34,315 nt of DNA from an uncultured Bacilli bacterium. GTDB taxonomy: Bacteria; Bacillota_I; Bacilli_A; RF39; UBA660. Below are positions 1,092-20,074 of the stretch, in pieces. A model generated the notes under the pieces. That model ran no database searches and had not been told where the DNA came from. It worked only from the letters and a program-made list of their open reading frames with translations. The stretch is from contig CALVRX010000039.1 in NCBI GenBank assembly GCA_944358815.1, positions 1 to 34,315 on the forward strand, written 5' to 3'. The position numbers were made by a program, and so were the translations under genes. Each line of letters starts with the position of its first letter. Position 1 is the stretch's first letter.

Positions 1092-1110
1092 GCAAAATAT
1101 TAAAGAAATA

Positions 1111-1136
1111 AGAAAAAAAGTAAGCCTAGGCTTACT
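1111..1136 (-). terminator. Terminator of the bacteriocin operon
   Basis: The perfect palindrome AGTAAGCCTAGGCTTACT (1119-1136) is followed on the minus strand by a T-rich run. It overlaps the stop codon of the second precursor peptide and closes the exporter-peptide transcription unit before the rpsU promoter. Confidence 0.85.
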
Positions 1137-1296
1137 ATATGTCGCAAGTTTTACCGGATGTGACTCTTCTTATGGTAGAGCCAAGGCTTTTCCCAAGTTC
1201 AATTATTAGGCTAAATCCTTTAACGATGGCGTTTATTAAAGTTGAGGTAATAGCTCCACCACTAATGGATTTTAACTGATTATCATTTAATATCAT
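1135..1296 (-). CDS. Double-glycine leader bacteriocin precursor, peptide 2 (53 aa)
   Basis: Reading the minus strand from the ATG at 1296 to TAG at 1135 gives 53 residues. The leader MILNDNQLKSISGG fits the double-glycine consensus (L at position 3, L at 8, I at 11, GG at 13-14). The predicted 39-residue mature peptide is hydrophobic then basic, holds a GxxxG motif (GKSLG), an RR pair, and a single Cys near its end (GKTCDI). The ATG overlaps the stop of peptide 1 as ATGA, so translation is probably coupled. The gene sits directly downstream of a C39 exporter. It is too short for usual ORF cut-offs. Together with peptide 1 it suggests a two-peptide class II bacteriocin. Signalling peptides also use such leaders, but those are rarely paired like this. 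Confidence 0.8.
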   Translation of the reverse strand: MILNDNQLKSISGGAITSTLINAIVKGFSLIIELGKSLGSTIRRVTSGKTCDI

Positions 1297-1427
1297 TTAC
1301 TACATTTTATTGGGTTAATAAAGCCTTCGGCAATACTAATAATGAAGGTTATTATGCCACCAATGGCAGCCCATAAGCCATATCCTCCTCCGGTTACTTG
1401 CATAAGTTTTTCATCGGTTAAATACAT
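1293..1427 (-). CDS. Double-glycine leader bacteriocin precursor, peptide 1 (44 aa)
   Basis: The minus strand ATG at 1427, seven bases after AAGGAGT, opens a 44-codon frame ending TGA at 1293. The leader MYLTDEKLMQVTGG aligns position by position with that of peptide 2 (L3, D5, L8, V11, GG13-14). The predicted 30-residue mature part starts GYGLWAAIGG, continues with a hydrophobic Ile/Phe segment, and ends PIKCSK with a lone Cys. It has an A-xxx-G helix-packing motif rather than a strict GxxxG. It begins 11 bases after the exporter stop and overlaps peptide 2. The role as an antimicrobial precursor cleaved and exported by the adjacent C39 transporter is inferred from leader and context. No immunity gene is recognised. 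Confidence 0.82.
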   Translation of the reverse strand: MYLTDEKLMQVTGGGYGLWAAIGGIITFIISIAEGFINPIKCSK

Positions 1428-1438
1428 TTAACTCCTTT

Positions 1439-3466
1439 CTAGTTATTACGTTTGGTATTTAAAACAATTTGTCCTTTATTTATTTTAATAAATTGGTCGA
1501 ATAAATCAAGGTTATCTAAGCGATGAGAAATATAAATGATGGTTTTTTTAGGATACTTGGCAAATAGTTTTTTTAATATTCTTCTTTCCATATCGATACT
1601 TACTTGATTTAGTCCTTCATCAATGATTAAAATATTAAAGTTACAAAGGGCACGAGCTAAAACAATTCTTTGTTTTTGTCCACTGGAAAGATTAAAACCA
1701 TTTTCCTCAATTAATTGATAATAATTATTTTGGGCAATGTTTTCGATTTCGCAAATATGAACACAATCAGGATTTTTTGTTTTTAAAGTTAAATTATCAA
1801 TTAGAGGACCTGTAAATAATATTTCTTTTGAGGAAACATATATTATGTCTTGAAAATAATGGTTTTGAATATCAGTTTGACCTATGACAATATTACCTTG
1901 GTAGTTTTGATAATAACCTTTTAATATTTTAAATAAAGTTGTTTTGCCACTGCCACTACCTCCTGTTACAAATACTTTACTAGCATTTTTGATAGTTAAA
2001 TTAATATCTTTTAATATTAAGTCTTTATTATCGTAAGTAAAGTTTAAGTGTTTAATTTGAATATCACCATTTACTGATGATTTTATTAATGGCTTTGGAG
2101 TATATATAAGTAGTTCAGCTATATTATTTAACGATGCTTTTAATTCGGTTAGTTGATATTCAAAATCAAAAATATTTTTTACCAAATTTAATGATGCAGT
2201 TATAAGAACATAAATTATTATTAAATTATGAATATTGTGATTATTTTGGATAATTAAAATTACCATAATTAAAATAGTAAAGTGTTCAATTAAGTTTTTA
2301 ATTAACGAAAAAAGATTATTTTGATTAAATACTTGTTTATTTAATTTAGTAAATTTTTGGTAATGACTGATAAATTTGGTATTTATGTTATTTTGAATAT
2401 GCAGGTTTTTAATGGTTTCAAAGCCACTAATGGCTTCCACAATATAGGAGTTTATTTGATATTTTTGCCTAGTCATTTTCTCTATGATTAAGTTATTTGT
2501 TAGTTTATAAATAAGAAAATAAATTAAAATATTTAATATTAAGAGCAGTATAAAGAAAGGATTAATACAACAGAGTATGATAGCTAAAATAATTAAAAGT
2601 GGAAGTTCCATGAAAAAGATTTGTGAAAAATAGTGGATGACATCTTTAACAACATAAAGGTCATTAAAGTAACTGACAATTTCTCCAGTTGTTTTACGGT
2701 AGTAATAACGATAAGGAAGGTTTAAAATTTTCAAAAAAATATCCAATGACAGTTGTTTATCTAATTTTAAATTAAGGTTAATTACTAGTTTATTTTTGAT
2801 GAAATTAAAGAGGTCTTTAAATGAAAAGATTAACAGAAAGGAGGCACATAGCGCCAAAATAAATTTTTTGTTTATATTAGAGACAACTAAAGGTAAAAAA
2901 AGTGAAGATATGATGGATAGGAAACTGACAAATAACGAAGTAAAGTTGATTAGTATGATTAGTTTGAAATTTTTTTTAATATAATACCAGATAAATTTTA
3001 ATATATTAGGTTCAGTTTGATAAGTTATTTGTTTAATTGGATACATTTGGATAGATATTCCTGTCCAAATTTTATTAAACTCCTCAAATTTAATAGATTT
3101 TAAGGATGTCGCTGGGTCAGCAATTAAAAGTGTTTTCTTTTTAAAATTGATCTTATATACGACAACATAGTGTTGGTAGGAGTGGTTAATAATTACGTGA
3201 GCTATACAAGGTAACTTTAAATCAGAAAGATTACTATTTTTGACTCCTATACTATTAAATCCAAGGCTTTTTAATGTTTCGTTTATGTGATAAGCGGTGG
3301 TGCCATTTTGATTAGTTTGCAGCATTTCACTTAGTTTATTTATACTGACATATCCGTGGTGGTATTTTAATATCATCTGCACACATGCTGGTCCACACTC
3401 TTTTAAACCTTTTTGTTTAATATATGGATATTTTTTGATGTTTTCACCTCCCTCATTGATTAACAT
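1439..3466 (-). CDS. Peptidase C39 / ABC bacteriocin exporter
   Basis: This single-chain transporter cleaves double-glycine leaders and exports the mature peptide through the membrane. Numbered from the ATG at 3466, residues 10-145 form the C39 peptidase, with Gln18, catalytic Cys24 (KECGPAC), His99 and Asp117. A membrane domain with several hydrophobic segments follows (about 165-430). The ABC ATPase comes last: Walker A GGSGSGKTT near 500, signature LSSGQKQ near 594, Walker B NILIIDE near 613, and the SHR switch histidine near 645. All catalytic motifs are intact. The two substrate peptides follow at once. The ATG has no ribosome binding site; a strong one (GAGGGAGGTG) lies inside the frame, five bases before an ATC codon at 3439, which is where family members usually begin. 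No HlyD-like accessory protein is present. Confidence 0.9.
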   Translation of the reverse strand: MLINEGGENIKKYPYIKQKGLKECGPACVQMILKYHHGYVSINKLSEMLQTNQNGTTAYHINETLKSLGFNSIGVKNSNLSDLKLPCIAHVIINHSYQHYVVVYKINFKKKTLLIADPATSLKSIKFEEFNKIWTGISIQMYPIKQITYQTEPNILKFIWYYIKKNFKLIILINFTSLFVSFLSIISSLFLPLVVSNINKKFILALCASFLLIFSFKDLFNFIKNKLVINLNLKLDKQLSLDIFLKILNLPYRYYYRKTTGEIVSYFNDLYVVKDVIHYFSQIFFMELPLLIILAIILCCINPFFILLLILNILIYFLIYKLTNNLIIEKMTRQKYQINSYIVEAISGFETIKNLHIQNNINTKFISHYQKFTKLNKQVFNQNNLFSLIKNLIEHFTILIMVILIIQNNHNIHNLIIIYVLITASLNLVKNIFDFEYQLTELKASLNNIAELLIYTPKPLIKSSVNGDIQIKHLNFTYDNKDLILKDINLTIKNASKVFVTGGSGSGKTTLFKILKGYYQNYQGNIVIGQTDIQNHYFQDIIYVSSKEILFTGPLIDNLTLKTKNPDCVHICEIENIAQNNYYQLIEENGFNLSSGQKQRIVLARALCNFNILIIDEGLNQVSIDMERRILKKLFAKYPKKTIIYISHRLDNLDLFDQFIKINKGQIVLNTKRNN

Positions 3467-3482
3467 ACGATTTAAGGAGGCA
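3445..3482 (-). promoter_or_regulatory. Ribosome binding site that can be masked by an upstream anti-SD segment
   Basis: The minus strand TGCCTCCTT (3474-3482) can pair over nine bases (three G-T pairs) with AGGGAGGTG (3445-3453), the strong ribosome binding site of the exporter, leaving a 20-base loop. This would hide the site. Seen by base complementarity only; any control function is inferred. Confidence 0.45.
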
Positions 3483-3520
3483 ATATCCTTTTGGACTATA
3501 AATTTTTACAACAAAAAAAG

Positions 3521-4691: not shown

Positions 4692-4716
4692 TAAAAAAAG
4701 ACTTTTTTGGTCTTTT
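4692..4716 (-). terminator. Terminator of the isolated TasA-like gene
   Basis: Minus strand AAAGAC-CAAAAAA-GTCTTT followed by more T, located just at the stop codon of the upstream gene. Confidence 0.8.
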
Positions 4717-5209
4717 AGGCATTTTGGATATAATTCAATTTTAAAGATAAAGTAGAATTAATTATATCGGGTTGGGATGTGACTTTACTATTATAGGAAA
4801 CTATAACATCAAAGGTTTGTGATTGATTAGCTTGCAATAAATCATTTTTATTAATTCTTTGGGTTTGAAACGTAATGGCAGGATTATTAGAATCAGTCAT
4901 TTCAATACTAGATACTTTAGCATCAACATTGCCTTTATTAGTAACAGTGACTGTATAAGTCATAGAATCGCCAGGACTGACTAAATTGGTTTTAAAGGTG
5001 GCAGTGGTGCCTGAGATAACCGGTTCGATAGCTTTAGTGGCACTTCCTTCAACATTTGTGACATCAATATTTGTGATTTGTATATCCCATTTACTCGATA
5101 TGCTGGCAGTACCTGTAGTGATTAGTTGAGTAGAAAAAGCGGCATATCCAACGGCTAGCATACAAATAATAGCTATTAAAAATACTAAAATCATTGATTT
5201 TTGTTTCAT
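4715..5209 (-). CDS. TasA/camelysin-like secreted protein (isolated paralog)
   Basis: A 164-residue exported protein. Residues 1-27 are a signal peptide ending VGYAAFS, the same Tyr/Trp-Ala-Ala-Phe cleavage region seen in SipW substrates such as TasA. The rest is a beta-sandwich-like domain with SPGDSMTYTVTVTNKGNVDAKV, the conserved 'PGD...V.N.G.....' segment of the TasA/camelysin group, and a C-terminal LSLKLNYIQ strand. It is the most distant of five paralogs in the window and lies 10 kb from the SipW gene. It has its own promoter and terminator. A fibre or matrix role is inferred from the family. Confidence 0.75.
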   Translation of the reverse strand: MKQKSMILVFLIAIICMLAVGYAAFSTQLITTGTASISSKWDIQITNIDVTNVEGSATKAIEPVISGTTATFKTNLVSPGDSMTYTVTVTNKGNVDAKVSSIEMTDSNNPAITFQTQRINKNDLLQANQSQTFDVIVSYNSKVTSQPDIINSTLSLKLNYIQNA

Positions 5210-15904: not shown

Positions 15905-17047
15905 CTATGATATTGCACCACTTAGCCATACTGATGGATAACCAATATATGGTACAACAAATGATACTTTACCAATGACATCTTCAAAAGCAACGGCATT
16001 AGCATCAATGGTATTATTATGATCTCCTTTAGTAACAAATAATTTGTTACCAAATTCGTCGTTAGTAATTTCTACAATTCTATGAACAACATATTTGGTG
16101 CCACTGACGAATTGAATTATATCGCCTTTTTTTAATTCATCTTTTTCTTTGTTGTTTAGTTTATTAATGACTACGGCATCGCCACGATTAAAGGTTGGTG
16201 ACATACTACCGGACATGACGGCAATTGGTTGATATTTGAATAATCCCATAACAAAGCCAGCAAGTAAAGCGATAAAGATAAATACTGGGACATAAACGAC
16301 AGGATTATATTTTCTTCGTTCGCGCTTTGATAGCCTTTCAGATTTATTTACATGAACATAGTTCATATAAACGTATACAGCAAGTGGTAATAAAACGCCC
16401 ACAATAGCTGTTCCAAACCAATCTAAGTTAGGTACGATTGGTACAATAAATGGTGGAACAGTAACAAATAATTTATAGATGATACTGAATTTAACTCCAC
16501 CTATATATACTAGATAAGTACATACCGCACTTTCTAATATATTTGGTATTAATGTTGTAGATGTATAAATAAATGCTTCTTTTAAATCGCTGAAATTATT
16601 TAAGAAATTTGAAAAATCTGTATTAATGAAAGCAAATAAAATAGTCATTAAAATAAAATTCCAAACTTTTTTCTTTTCATTTTTAACAAGTGCTGCTCTG
16701 ATAAATTCTTGGAAAAATATTATTCCTACAAAACACCATAAGTTTTTTATAATACTAACAATATCTTTGGCATAAGGTGTTCTTTCGAAACCAAATACTA
16801 ATCCAAGTAAGAAATATATGATTATATAAATTATCAATGCAATAAGTAAACTTTGTGTTTTATCTTGTTCTCCTTTAACCCTAAATGACGAATCTCGACT
16901 TAAAAATACTGCAACTGCGCATAATATAATCCACATGAGTGGATGAATTATTTCATTGTAGTAATCAAGATTTAAGGGACTGATAACAAAGGTGTTTAAA
17001 ATCAAATATATAATTAATGAACTATATATTATTAGATTATTTTTCAT
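15905..17047 (-). CDS. sipW: SipW-type (ER-type) signal peptidase I with large membrane domain
   Basis: The C-terminal 120 residues are a signal peptidase: catalytic Ser in AVMSGSMSPTF near 280, RGDAVVINK, GDIIQF, and KYVVHRIVEI near 321, where His replaces the Lys of bacterial enzymes, as in SipW and the ER signal peptidase. It ends with GDHN..ID and a final hydrophobic segment. The N-terminal 250 residues form about seven membrane helices with no similarity I recognise; ordinary SipW is about 190 residues in total. The likely substrates are the TasA-like proteins encoded upstream. ATG 17047 is seven bases after GGGG; an ATG two codons earlier is less well placed. Confidence 0.88.
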   Translation of the reverse strand: MKNNLIIYSSLIIYLILNTFVISPLNLDYYNEIIHPLMWIILCAVAVFLSRDSSFRVKGEQDKTQSLLIALIIYIIIYFLLGLVFGFERTPYAKDIVSIIKNLWCFVGIIFFQEFIRAALVKNEKKKVWNFILMTILFAFINTDFSNFLNNFSDLKEAFIYTSTTLIPNILESAVCTYLVYIGGVKFSIIYKLFVTVPPFIVPIVPNLDWFGTAIVGVLLPLAVYVYMNYVHVNKSERLSKRERRKYNPVVYVPVFIFIALLAGFVMGLFKYQPIAVMSGSMSPTFNRGDAVVINKLNNKEKDELKKGDIIQFVSGTKYVVHRIVEITNDEFGNKLFVTKGDHNNTIDANAVAFEDVIGKVSFVVPYIGYPSVWLSGAIS

Positions 17048-17095
17048 AGTCATACCCCTTTTTTATATTTTTCCTTACTATTCTTACTATATTGA

Positions 17096-17163: not shown

Positions 17164-17203
17164 CAAAAAGAAAAACTTATGCTATTAGGCTTGAACATAA
17201 GTT
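17164..17203 (-). terminator. Terminator of TasA-like gene 1
   Basis: Minus strand AACTTATG / CATAAGTT with the stop codon in the loop, then TTTCTTTTT. It separates this gene from the sipW promoter. Confidence 0.85.
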
Positions 17204-17739
17204 AAGTTTACAGTTAAACTAGCAGTTGAGTTATAGGCGTTATCATTGCCGGCTGCTTTATCAACAAATTCAGCAACAATTTTTAATTGAGCTGTACTAC
17301 TGCTTTGTAAAACTCCGGTTCCTGGGCTAGTGACTGTGTATTTTATATTTCCATCTGAGCTTACAGCTGTTAGGTTTTCTTGATTTGGAGTTATATTGTT
17401 TCCAGATAAGGTAATATTACTTAATTTGGCATCAATAGTACCTGTATTTTCAATTGGAACAATATAAGTTATGGTATCTCCTGGACTAATTAAGCTAGCT
17501 TCAAAAGTAGCGGTTAGACCATCACCATCAACCAAGACTTGACCTGATGGAGTTGTACCCATGGTAGAATTAGCTTGATAAGTGGCACCTGTTTGCTGAA
17601 AATGAACATCCCACCTTGATGTAATAGTGGCATCACCAGTGATATTTAATTTTTGAGCAAAGGCGGCATAGCCAACTGACATAACTAAAACTACAGCTAA
17701 AAGGGCAATAATTAATGCTTTTTTATGTGTTTTTTCCAT
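17185..17739 (-). CDS. TasA/camelysin-like secreted protein 1
   Basis: A 184-residue exported protein with signal peptide KKALIIALLAVVLVMSVGYAAFAQ. The mature part starts KLNITGDATITSRWDVHF, and a core SPGDTITYIVPIENTGTIDAKLSNITL matches the TasA/camelysin sandwich. The last strand is SLTVNLTYVQ. It is the nearest paralog to sipW and more diverged from the three upstream copies: it lacks their NEKTNWNVH insert and ends in YVQA. It has its own promoter and terminator and an AAAGGAGG site. Expected fate: SipW cleavage near AFA-Q, then assembly outside as fibre or matrix; inferred from the family. Confidence 0.8.
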   Translation of the reverse strand: MEKTHKKALIIALLAVVLVMSVGYAAFAQKLNITGDATITSRWDVHFQQTGATYQANSTMGTTPSGQVLVDGDGLTATFEASLISPGDTITYIVPIENTGTIDAKLSNITLSGNNITPNQENLTAVSSDGNIKYTVTSPGTGVLQSSSTAQLKIVAEFVDKAAGNDNAYNSTASLTVNLTYVQA

Positions 17740-17765
17740 GTTTTCCTCCTTTATATTCTATAAAA

Positions 17766-17794
17766 ATAGTATCATAATTTAATTAATGATTCAA
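17766..17794 (-). promoter_or_regulatory. Promoter of TasA-like gene 1
   Basis: Minus strand TTGAAT, 17 bases, TACTAT (-35 17789-17794, -10 17766-17771). Confidence 0.75.
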
Positions 17795-18016
17795 GTAGAT
17801 TTAACATTAACTTACATTTTTATATTTTAAAATGATATAACATAATATTATTTGACTTTATGTTGACGTTAATTAAATACCTACATAAATATTGTGTGTT
17901 TTTATCTTTAGTTTTATGATAAGTATAATATTACTTGATTTTTCTATTTTTAACTGTAATTGTTTGTGTTTTTTTGGATAAAATCTATTAATTTTTTAGA
18001 AAATAAACAGAAGACA
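17795..18016. other. AT-rich gap between TasA-like genes 1 and 2
   Basis: About 220 bases with no coding potential in either strand and no clear hairpin. It holds two loose copies of a TTAACATTAA / TTGACGTTAAT pattern. It is longer than the other gaps in the array and may carry extra control sites for gene 1; nothing further can be supported. Confidence 0.5.
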
Positions 18017-18050
18017 CAAAAAAAGAAAAACGTTATAGTTTTCCATTTTT
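18017..18050 (-). terminator. Terminator of TasA-like gene 2
   Basis: Minus strand GAAAAC-TATAAC-GTTTTTC followed by TTTTTTT. Confidence 0.75.
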
Positions 18051-18058
18051 CATACGTA

Positions 18059-18637
18059 TTATTCAGCTTGGTGAGCTAATGTAGTTACTGAAATGCTTGA
18101 TTCAGTAACAGAACCAACTGACTGAGCATTACCATCGAATGTAGCTGTTACAGTCATTGTAGCAGTTGCACCTTTAGCAATTGAATCTGGATTAGCTGGA
18201 GTTACTGTGAAGATGATATTTCCTTTTTTAACAACTAAATCAGCAGGATTGGTGTCTTCGCCTCCACCGTTTGCTGTAACTTTTGGTTCATCTAATATAG
18301 CAGTAACATTTCCTTCATTCATAATAGTTAAAGTAAATTCTACTGTATCACCTGGCTGATTTAAAGTAGCATTAAGAGTTGCAGTATGTCCTTCATCATC
18401 ATATTCAATAGTTCCGGCTGGAGGTGTTGCTCCACCTGTGCCCATATTAGCAACTACAGCACCACTTGATTCTTTTTTACTTGTATCAAAGTGGACATTC
18501 CAGTTTGTTTTTTCTTCAGTGATGTTAGCTGTACTATTGATAGTTAATGTTTGAGCAAAAGCGGCATAACCTACTGCCATAACAAAGACAACTGCAAGTA
18601 AGGCTCCAATTAGTGCATTTTTGTGTTTGCTTTCCAT
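18059..18637 (-). CDS. TasA/camelysin-like secreted protein 2
   Basis: A 192-residue protein with signal peptide KNALIGALLAVVFVMAVGYAAFAQ. The mature start is TLTINSTANITEEKTNWNVHFDTSKKESSGAV, followed by a Gly-rich turn and the conserved core LNQPGDTVEFTLTIMNEGNVTAILDEP. The end is ESSISVTTLAHQAE. It is a close copy of proteins 3 and 4, differing mainly in an acidic loop after the core (GGGEDTNPADL) that looks like the exposed variable part. It has its own promoter, leader hairpin and terminator, so the copies can be expressed separately. Likely a SipW substrate. Confidence 0.82.
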   Translation of the reverse strand: MESKHKNALIGALLAVVFVMAVGYAAFAQTLTINSTANITEEKTNWNVHFDTSKKESSGAVVANMGTGGATPPAGTIEYDDEGHTATLNATLNQPGDTVEFTLTIMNEGNVTAILDEPKVTANGGGEDTNPADLVVKKGNIIFTVTPANPDSIAKGATATMTVTATFDGNAQSVGSVTESSISVTTLAHQAE

Positions 18638-18687
18638 TTTCGATTTCCCTCCTATAATATTCTAAGTAGTTTCTCTACTCTATATTG

Positions 18688-18716
18688 ATGATACCATAAT
18701 TTGCAAAAGACTTCAA
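18688..18716 (-). promoter_or_regulatory. Promoter of TasA-like gene 2
   Basis: Minus strand TTGAAG, 17 bases, TATCAT with TGG before the -10. The leader carries GTAG-AGAAA-CTAC followed by the AGGAGGG site, nearly identical to the gene 4 leader. Confidence 0.8.
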
Positions 18717-18717
18717 T

Positions 18718-18750
18718 AACAAAAAAAGAAAAACTATGTTAGTTTTTTCC
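18718..18750 (-). terminator. Terminator of TasA-like gene 3
   Basis: Minus strand AAAAACTA-ACA-TAGTTTTT followed by CTTTTTTT. Confidence 0.85.
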
Positions 18751-18768
18751 TTTTTTACACAAATTACA

Positions 18769-18804
18769 TTATTCAGCTTATTCAGCTTATTCAGCTTATT
18801 CAGC
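18769..18804 (-). repeat. Four tandem 9-bp units repeating Ala-Glu-stop
   Basis: On the coding strand GCTGAATAA occurs four times in a row. Because the unit is nine bases, each copy reads Ala-Glu-stop in the gene frame. Only the first stop is used, so three spare in-frame stops follow. TasA-like gene 2 has a single copy at the same place. Confidence 0.9.
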
Positions 18805-19374
18805 TTGGTGAGCTAATGTAGTTACTGAAATACTTGATTCAGTAACAGATCCAACTGACTGTGCATTAGCATCGAATGTAGCTGTTACAGTCATTGTAGC
18901 AGTTGAACCTTTAGCAATTGAATTTGGTGTAGCTGAAGTTACATTAAAGATGATATTTCCTTTTTTAACAACTAATAGATCTTCATCTTCGTCAGTACCT
19001 TCACCGTTGGCTGTAACTTGTGGTTCATCTAATATAGCAGTAACATTTCCTTCATTCATAATGGTTAAAGTAAATTTTACTGTATCACCTGGCTGATTTA
19101 AAGTAGCATTAAGAGTTGCAGTATGTCCTTCTCCATCATAGGTAATAGTTCCTTTTGGAGCTACAGCACCACCTGTTCCCATATTAGCTTCTACAGCACC
19201 ACTTGATTCATTTTTAGTTGTGTCATAGTGAACATTCCAGTTTGTTTTTTCATCAGTAACTGTAGCTGTACTGTTGATAGTTAATTGTTGTGCGAAAGCG
19301 GCATAACCTACTGCCATAACTAAAATAACTGCTACTAATGATACGATTAATGTGTTTTTGTATTTACTTTCCAT
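18796..19374 (-). CDS. TasA/camelysin-like secreted protein 3
   Basis: 192 residues when started at ATG 19374, which follows AAGGAAGG by six bases; the frame opens seven codons earlier without a site of its own. Signal peptide KNTLIVSLVAVILVMAVGYAAFAQ. The mature start is QLTINSTATVTDEKTNWNVHYDTTKNESSGAV, with core LNQPGDTVKFTLTIMNEGNVTAILDEP. The variable acidic loop here is GEGTDEDEDLLVV. The rest is nearly the same as protein 2, including the ESSISVTTLAHQAE end. Recent tandem duplication is the simplest explanation. Likely exported, SipW-processed and surface-located. Confidence 0.82.
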   Translation of the reverse strand: MESKYKNTLIVSLVAVILVMAVGYAAFAQQLTINSTATVTDEKTNWNVHYDTTKNESSGAVEANMGTGGAVAPKGTITYDGEGHTATLNATLNQPGDTVKFTLTIMNEGNVTAILDEPQVTANGEGTDEDEDLLVVKKGNIIFNVTSATPNSIAKGSTATMTVTATFDANAQSVGSVTESSISVTTLAHQAE

Positions 19375-19419
19375 GTTTTCCTTCCTTTCTCTCAAGTAGC
19401 TTTTCTCTACTCTTAATTT

Positions 19420-19448
19420 AATATATCATTTTTTTTATAGGTTATCAA
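19420..19448 (-). promoter_or_regulatory. Promoter of TasA-like gene 3
   Basis: Minus strand TTGATA, 17 bases, TATATT. The leader has a variant hairpin GTAGAGAAAAGCTAC. Confidence 0.78.
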
Positions 19449-19453
19449 GATAC

Positions 19454-19487
19454 AAAAAAAGAAAAGCTATAAAAAGTTTTTCTTTTT
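19454..19487 (-). terminator. Terminator of TasA-like gene 4
   Basis: Minus strand AAAGAAAA / TTTTCTTT with inner CT/AG pairs, followed by more T. Confidence 0.7.
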
Positions 19488-19495
19488 TACACATA

Positions 19496-20074
19496 TTAGG
19501 CACCAGCTTGGTGAGCTAATGTAGTGACTGAAATAGTAGCAGTATTGACATCACCTACTGACTCAGCAGTAGAATCAAATTCAGCAGTTACAGTCATTGT
19601 AGCAGTTTCCCCTTTAGCAATTGAACCTGGTGTAGCTGAAGTTACTGTGAAGATGATATTTCCACTTTTTACTTTCATTGGATCATCAGGTAATTCATCA
19701 TCGCCATCAAATGAAACTTTTGCTGGATCTAATACAGCAGTAACAGCGCCTTCATTCATAACAGTTAAAGTATACAATACTTTGTCGCCTGGCTGATTTA
19801 AAGTAGCCTTAAGAGTTGCAGTATGTCCTTCTCCATCATAGGTAATAGTTCCTGCTGGAGCTACAGCACCACCAGTTCCCATAGTAGCACTTACGGCACC
19901 AGTTGATTCTTTTTTACTTGTATCAAAGTGAACATTCCAGTTTGTTTTTTCATTAGTAACTGTAGCTGTACTGTTGATAGTTAGTGTTTGAGCAAATGCG
20001 GCATAACCTACTGCCATAACTAAAATAACTGCTACTAATGCGACAATTAACGCATTTTTGTGTCTAGTTTCCAT
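19496..20074 (-). CDS. TasA/camelysin-like secreted protein 4
   Basis: A 192-residue paralog with signal peptide KNALIVALVAVILVMAVGYAAFAQ and mature start TLTINSTATVTNEKTNWNVHFDTSKKESTGAV. The core is LNQPGDKVLYTLTVMNEGAVTAVLDPAKV and the acidic loop DGDDELPDDPMKV. It ends SVTTLAHQAGA, one residue beyond proteins 2 and 3. It is the most upstream copy of the array and has its own promoter. The AGGAGGG site and leader match gene 2 almost base for base. A role as a SipW-dependent fibre subunit is inferred. Confidence 0.82.
   Translation of the reverse strand: METRHKNALIVALVAVILVMAVGYAAFAQTLTINSTATVTNEKTNWNVHFDTSKKESTGAVSATMGTGGAVAPAGTITYDGEGHTATLKATLNQPGDKVLYTLTVMNEGAVTAVLDPAKVSFDGDDELPDDPMKVKSGNIIFTVTSATPGSIAKGETATMTVTAEFDSTAESVGDVNTATISVTTLAHQAGA

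Follow-up and report, generated by a model that had tools for sequence, protein, structure and literature searches.

Two-peptide (class IIb) bacteriocins, among them lactococcin G, plantaricin S, enterocin 1071 and the cerein 7B family, have double-glycine leaders, a C39 exporter and GxxxG-type motifs in both peptides, the motifs being present in all characterised members (PMC6382864), and class IIb systems have membrane immunity proteins (PMC6957408). In Streptococcus, the competence-induced CibAB/CibC and CabAB/CabC systems consist of two peptides and a downstream immunity gene under alternative-sigma control, and CibAB is universal in one species, S. pneumoniae (PMC13059744). Cdz of Caulobacter likewise combines two glycine-zipper proteins, type I secretion and a small membrane immunity protein (PMC5380434), while the double-glycine peptides EbfG1-4 and the C39 exporter PteB of Synechococcus have a biofilm role (PMC4997328). 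RF39/UBA660 are genome-reduced gut Bacilli (PMC6784871, PMC13155120, PMC10868615), widespread in animal guts, uncultured and lacking pathways for fatty acids and for several amino acids and vitamins (PMC6784871). We found no paper on how RF39 interacts with its neighbours, and literature searches on RF39 with bacteriocin turned up no description of the peptide pair reported here.

The pair lies in a 34,315-nucleotide contig of an uncultured member of the Bacilli (the window; Table 1). As an earlier sequence-only reading had claimed, two small frames, peptides A and B, directly follow the 3' end of an intact C39/ABC exporter frame and share 4 nt, and the positions and sizes given there were correct. 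Its details also held: the two leaders align without gaps (L3, D5, L8, V/I11, G13 and G14), both peptides have a GxxxG-type motif (S31xxxG35 in A and G35xxxG39 in B), each ends with a lone Cys in a basic tail (NPIKCSK in A and SGKTCDI in B), and a hairpin with a T run is found at the stop of B (1136-1109). The next gene beyond B and the terminator is that of ribosomal protein S21. All exporter motifs (C39, Walker A, signature and Walker B) are present, and the protein carries the sole C39 domain detected in the window's genome, an incomplete draft of 1.05 Mb. Structure prediction of B with four sequences gave a leader helix and one long helix with a mean pLDDT of 60, and was uninformative on pairing.

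Table 1. Features of the exporter-A-B locus (positions in the window)
Feature	Position	Strand	Remarks
Promoter-like element AAGGAT-N-CGTATGTTAAT upstream of exporter	3459..3490	-	sole match in window, 0 expected
C39 peptidase-containing ABC exporter, 675-codon frame	1439..3466	-	Pfam Peptidase_C39 1.8e-34, ABC_membrane, ABC_tran
Peptide A precursor, 44 aa	1293..1427	-	adjoins B in 95 of first 97 loci
Peptide A leader, 14 aa, double-glycine	1386-1427	-	
Peptide A predicted mature part GYGLWAAIGGIITFIISIAEGFINPIKCSK, 30 aa	1296-1385	-	
SxxxG (GxxxG-type) motif of A, residues 31-35	1323..1337	-	GxxxG 75, SxxxG 19, AxxxG 1 (95 sequences)
Cys42 codon of A	1302..1304	-	co-varies with Cys51 of B
Peptide B precursor, 53 aa	1135..1296	-	present in 269/288 genomes of the order
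Peptide B leader, 14 aa, double-glycine	1255-1296	-	
Peptide B predicted mature part AITSTLINAIVKGFSLIIELGKSLGSTIRRVTSGKTCDI, 39 aa	1138-1254	-	
GxxxG motif of B, residues 35-39	1180..1194	-	96/96 sequences
Cys51 codon of B	1144..1146	-	co-varies with Cys42 of A
Intrinsic-terminator-like hairpin and T run, operon end	1109..1136	-	7-pair stem, T tail; RNA fold z = -1.96

The exporter was present in all 35 same-genus genomes searched, with 39-63% identity (one of them a partial copy at the edge of a contig), and both peptide frames were kept beside it in 35/35 same-genus loci having a full-length exporter. In the alignment of 35 same-genus sequences, L8, G35, P39 and C42 were invariant in A, as were L8, G13, G14, G35, G39, R44 and C51 in B. 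When the order was searched with a profile of B, the peptide was found in 269 of 288 genomes and 97 of 102 genera (231 of the 245 genomes with a completeness of 90% or more), and outside the order there were two weak matches only among 395 genomes of the class, about 340 of which lie outside the order. The order's sampled genomes form one family with more than 100 genera and genome sizes of 0.6-1.9 Mb, and they probably correspond to GTDB RF39, family UBA660. Further loci were read from about 60 more genomes, mostly one per genus; the exporter lay upstream in 94 of the 95 loci that reached far enough to show it, this co-occurrence being what the sequence-only reading had named as support, and S21 was found within 1.5 kb downstream in 62 of 90. 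The leaders of A showed GD and AS as rare variants of the double glycine. Within the genus, exporter protein distances followed those of RsmD, a neighbour of the locus (Mantel r = 0.77, p = 0.001), with r values of 0.68 for B and 0.52 for A. Codon pairs with dS < 1.5 had a median dN/dS of 0.38 in A and 0.29 in B. Taken together, exporter, A and B are a core, vertically inherited locus that is not mobile, and both small frames are under purifying selection; neither the lack of conservation nor the broken frames beside an intact exporter that had been named as grounds for abandoning the peptide pair were seen.

The two weak matches elsewhere in the class (G038 and G476) were rejected as 130-aa double-glycine proteins of another kind, matching in the leader and its start. 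In two small genomes of another family (L133:6039-6431 and L134:1470-1862), the ribosomal protein L21/L27 genes (named by eye) adjoin a gene for a 130-aa protein that has a double-glycine leader.

The C-terminal Cys was scored in 161 adjacent A-B pairs from 157 loci, the lowest-scoring genomes being deliberately included. The uncorrected tally was 148 pairs with both Cys, 11 with neither and two apparent exceptions, in L206 and L228. In both of these a third double-glycine peptide lies between a true A and a true B that each have the Cys, so that the discordant pairs were mispairings and the corrected tally is 150 with both, 11 with neither and none with one alone. Co-loss occurred in three genera (g33, g43 and g47), in each of which other members or pairs keep both residues. 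A Fisher test of the uncorrected table gave p = 2e-15, a value that ignores phylogeny and behind which there may be three independent co-losses only; the co-variation is fairly stated as co-loss in three genera versus zero single losses. It is best explained by a physical link between the two residues or by a common partner of both, and the simplest form of such a link would be an A-B disulfide. The intermolecular bond suggested from the single window is supported by this joint retention and loss. Some genomes of g33 (L174, L182, L188 and L189) have two tandem A-B pairs, of which one keeps the Cys and the other does not. Where the Cys is missing in g33 (nine pairs), A carries an internal Cys in G-x-F-C-G instead, and a matching Cys was found inside the GxxxG of B in three partners only, the rest being without it, which counts against our reading of the pair.

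The locus resembles class IIb systems in that genes for two distinct peptides lie side by side (95 of 97 loci; 161 pairs from 157 loci), that both peptides carry double-glycine leaders and have a C39 ABC exporter of their own, and that a GxxxG-type motif was seen in every A (95/95) and every B (96/96) sequence. It has, however, no dedicated membrane immunity protein in the window or its genus. It also differs from them in being core and vertical, in its paired Cys, and in giving weak, mostly leader-driven matches, none of which reached a curated cut-off among the matches listed. With Bacteriocin_IIc (PF10439), B scored 14.3 bits against a gathering cut-off of 27.1 and A gave no match, the score in its own genome being 13.3 bits, likewise below the cut-off; with the NCBIfam class IIb models TIGR03949 and NF038034, A and B of the window scored 15-17 bits against cut-offs of 21.5 and 37. 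Bacteriocins of solved structure gave weak leader-region matches only (CtA, carnobacteriocin B2), with no relatedness beyond the leader. From the two-peptide bacteriocin first proposed, we therefore retain the secreted pair, the C39-type leaders and the GxxxG-type motifs, but not an ordinary accessory bacteriocin, since the locus is near-universal, syntenic and core, is under purifying selection and has no immunity gene in the window's genus. Because that gene is absent here and killing is something that we infer, we do not claim membership of class IIb and file the pair as bacteriocin-like. By sequence comparison, A and B appear to be a new family, CibAB-like in design. Unlike CibAB, the pair spans a whole order, has its own adjacent exporter and paired C-terminal Cys, is without an immunity gene in the window's genus and is linked to competence genes in one genome only. 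Its likeness to Cdz, which comes from another phylum and forms surface aggregates, is one of design, and for EbfG1-4/PteB the part of the source drawn on describes no such pair with GxxxG and paired Cys (PMC4997328).

The sequence-only reading had recognised no immunity gene in the window; we likewise found none there or in the genus, and there is no room for one between B and the terminator. Outside the genus, an additional frame, ORF C, was found downstream of B in 23 of 59 loci (about 40%; e.g. L047, L048, L055 and L096), in nearly all of which it shares 7-26 nt with B. The protein is leaderless, with a Lys-rich start, a membrane helix, the motif G-x-x-x-G-T-x-x-R and often a Cys. In profile comparison it aligned to the GxxxG-Cys half of B (hhalign 94%, E = 1.6e-7) and gave no alignment with A, and a search for a homologue in the window's genome gave noise only. 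Position and topology fit a candidate immunity protein and, as it mimics B, ORF C could pair with A as a decoy. If it does confer immunity by such mimicry, the principle would be a new one among two-peptide bacteriocins.

The promoter-like element is kept upstream of the exporter across the genus, in the form AAGGAAA-N15-GTATRTTAA (spacer of 15 in 29/30), and in many other genera. Exact matches to the genus form numbered about 50 in same-genus genomes versus 0 for a reversed control. The genes below it, named by eye unless they had Pfam matches, were the exporter operon, dnaG-sigA (in several genomes), M23 peptidases, PD-(D/E)XK/Rpn-type genes and a UvrD-like helicase, and it also precedes a thioester-type adhesin-sortase-amidase cluster. 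An exact match before comEA-comEC was limited to one genome (L245), which counts against a competence-linked reading. The -35 part resembles that of sigma-H promoters, one of which drives dnaG-sigA in B. subtilis. We regard the element as a lead to an alternative-sigma-like promoter that would define a regulon in the genus, and its gene content hints at a resemblance to the streptococcal competence regulon driving CibAB (PMC13059744).

Since the ATG of the exporter frame at 3466 falls inside this element, the true start is probably a non-AUG codon, ATC at 3437-3439, after GGGAGGTGA. The codon following this Shine-Dalgarno sequence was ATC, ATT or ATA in 14 of 14 subclade species and GTT in a 15th, and sister species have ATG at that position. 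A conserved non-AUG start is likely because the exporters of L008, L014 and L015 have no upstream in-frame ATG, GTG or TTG.

We favour, with moderate confidence, the view that exporter, A and B are a core, vertically kept system for a class IIb-like secreted pair that permeabilises neighbours through disulfide-locked pairing of helices. From known C39 biology, the exporter would bind both leaders, cut after Gly-Gly and export A (30 aa) and B (39 aa). Judging from their sequences, the mature peptides may each form a membrane helix and pack together via GxxxG, and a disulfide between the C-terminal Cys residues would lock the heterodimer, which would most likely permeabilise neighbouring bacteria. 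By analogy with competence-linked CibAB predation, membrane damage could release nutrients or DNA to the genome-reduced, auxotrophic RF39 cells. Self-protection in many other genera would probably come from ORF C, mimicking the GxxxG-Cys half of B; in the window's genus it would have to come from elsewhere, if it is needed at all. We hold only tentatively, and rather doubt, the fuller picture of an order-wide core, disulfide-locked two-peptide membrane weapon, induced by an alternative sigma factor together with wall hydrolases and DNA-uptake genes, that frees nutrients or DNA from neighbours and against which a B-derived membrane decoy protects the producers of many genera. The pair nevertheless offers a short, synthesizable object that almost all of the order has kept and for which the co-loss of Cys predicts a covalent link.

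Three observations count against a bacteriocin: retention this close to universal is unusual for such a locus, the window's genus has no immunity gene although its peptides are intact, and mature A is little charged (mean +0.6); the charge of mature B, about +3, speaks for one. The main rival is a core secreted heterodimer that is not an antibiotic, remaining in or attached to the envelope of the cell that makes it, or aiding surface or biofilm behaviour, in which case immunity would be unneeded. The order-wide, single-locus, vertical retention and the missing immunity gene of the window's genus agree with it, as does the occurrence of the promoter element before thioester-type adhesin, sortase and cell-wall enzyme genes, and the biofilm peptides EbfG/PteB of Synechococcus are a precedent (PMC4997328). 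A GxxxG peptide pair and, in many genera, a downstream membrane ORF that mimics B fit a toxin and its immunity protein better, and we consider this rival possible but unlikely.

The other explanations are weaker still. That A, B or both are pheromones is improbable: pheromones too leave via C39 exporters and there were weak leader-type matches to pheromone families, but no histidine kinase or regulator was found at the locus, in the window or in the loci read, and two co-conserved hydrophobic peptides of this length with paired Cys are unlike known pheromones. An ordinary strain-variable class IIb bacteriocin of recent acquisition would account for the anatomy of the locus; it is ruled out by distribution and synteny, with presence in nearly all genomes and genera of the order, the same neighbours and almost nothing beyond the order, and by the way in which exporter and B track RsmD, so that we assign it a very small probability. 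Chance frames or relics, for which small size alone speaks, are refuted by the order-wide conservation, the dN/dS of about 0.3-0.4 and the invariant residues, and are scarcely credible. The permeabilising pair described above is the reading that we prefer.

In other genera the locus is often longer: between exporter and A, 36 of 59 loci encode an additional protein of some 140 aa that has a single membrane helix. The gene is absent from the window's genus. The model of the protein has one helix and a beta domain, a fold search gave many weak membrane-fusion-protein matches, none with E < 0.001, and 7 of 15 accessory proteins of the order matched NCBIfam MAG1140 (NF045999), weak evidence that it is probably a minimal HlyD-type protein. 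Mycoplasmas likewise combine a C39-type exporter and a small accessory protein of one helix, the Mbov_0121-family peptidase ABC transporter and the MAG1140-family protein (NF045998, NF045999), although the window's exporter scored 202 bits against the NF045998 cut-off of 500 bits. In three mycoplasma-type genomes (L148, L152 and L161), a C39-type exporter and a MAG1140-like accessory gene were seen upstream of ybeY-cdd-era (named by eye); unlike in the order's locus, no double-glycine peptides were recognised beside them.

Elsewhere in the window, a collagen-like GxT/GxS repeat frame (1-311) runs off the contig edge, and several TasA/CalY-like secreted proteins and a signal-peptidase-like gene were identified by eye (4715-5209, 15905-17053 and 17185-20074), which suggests a protein fibre system.
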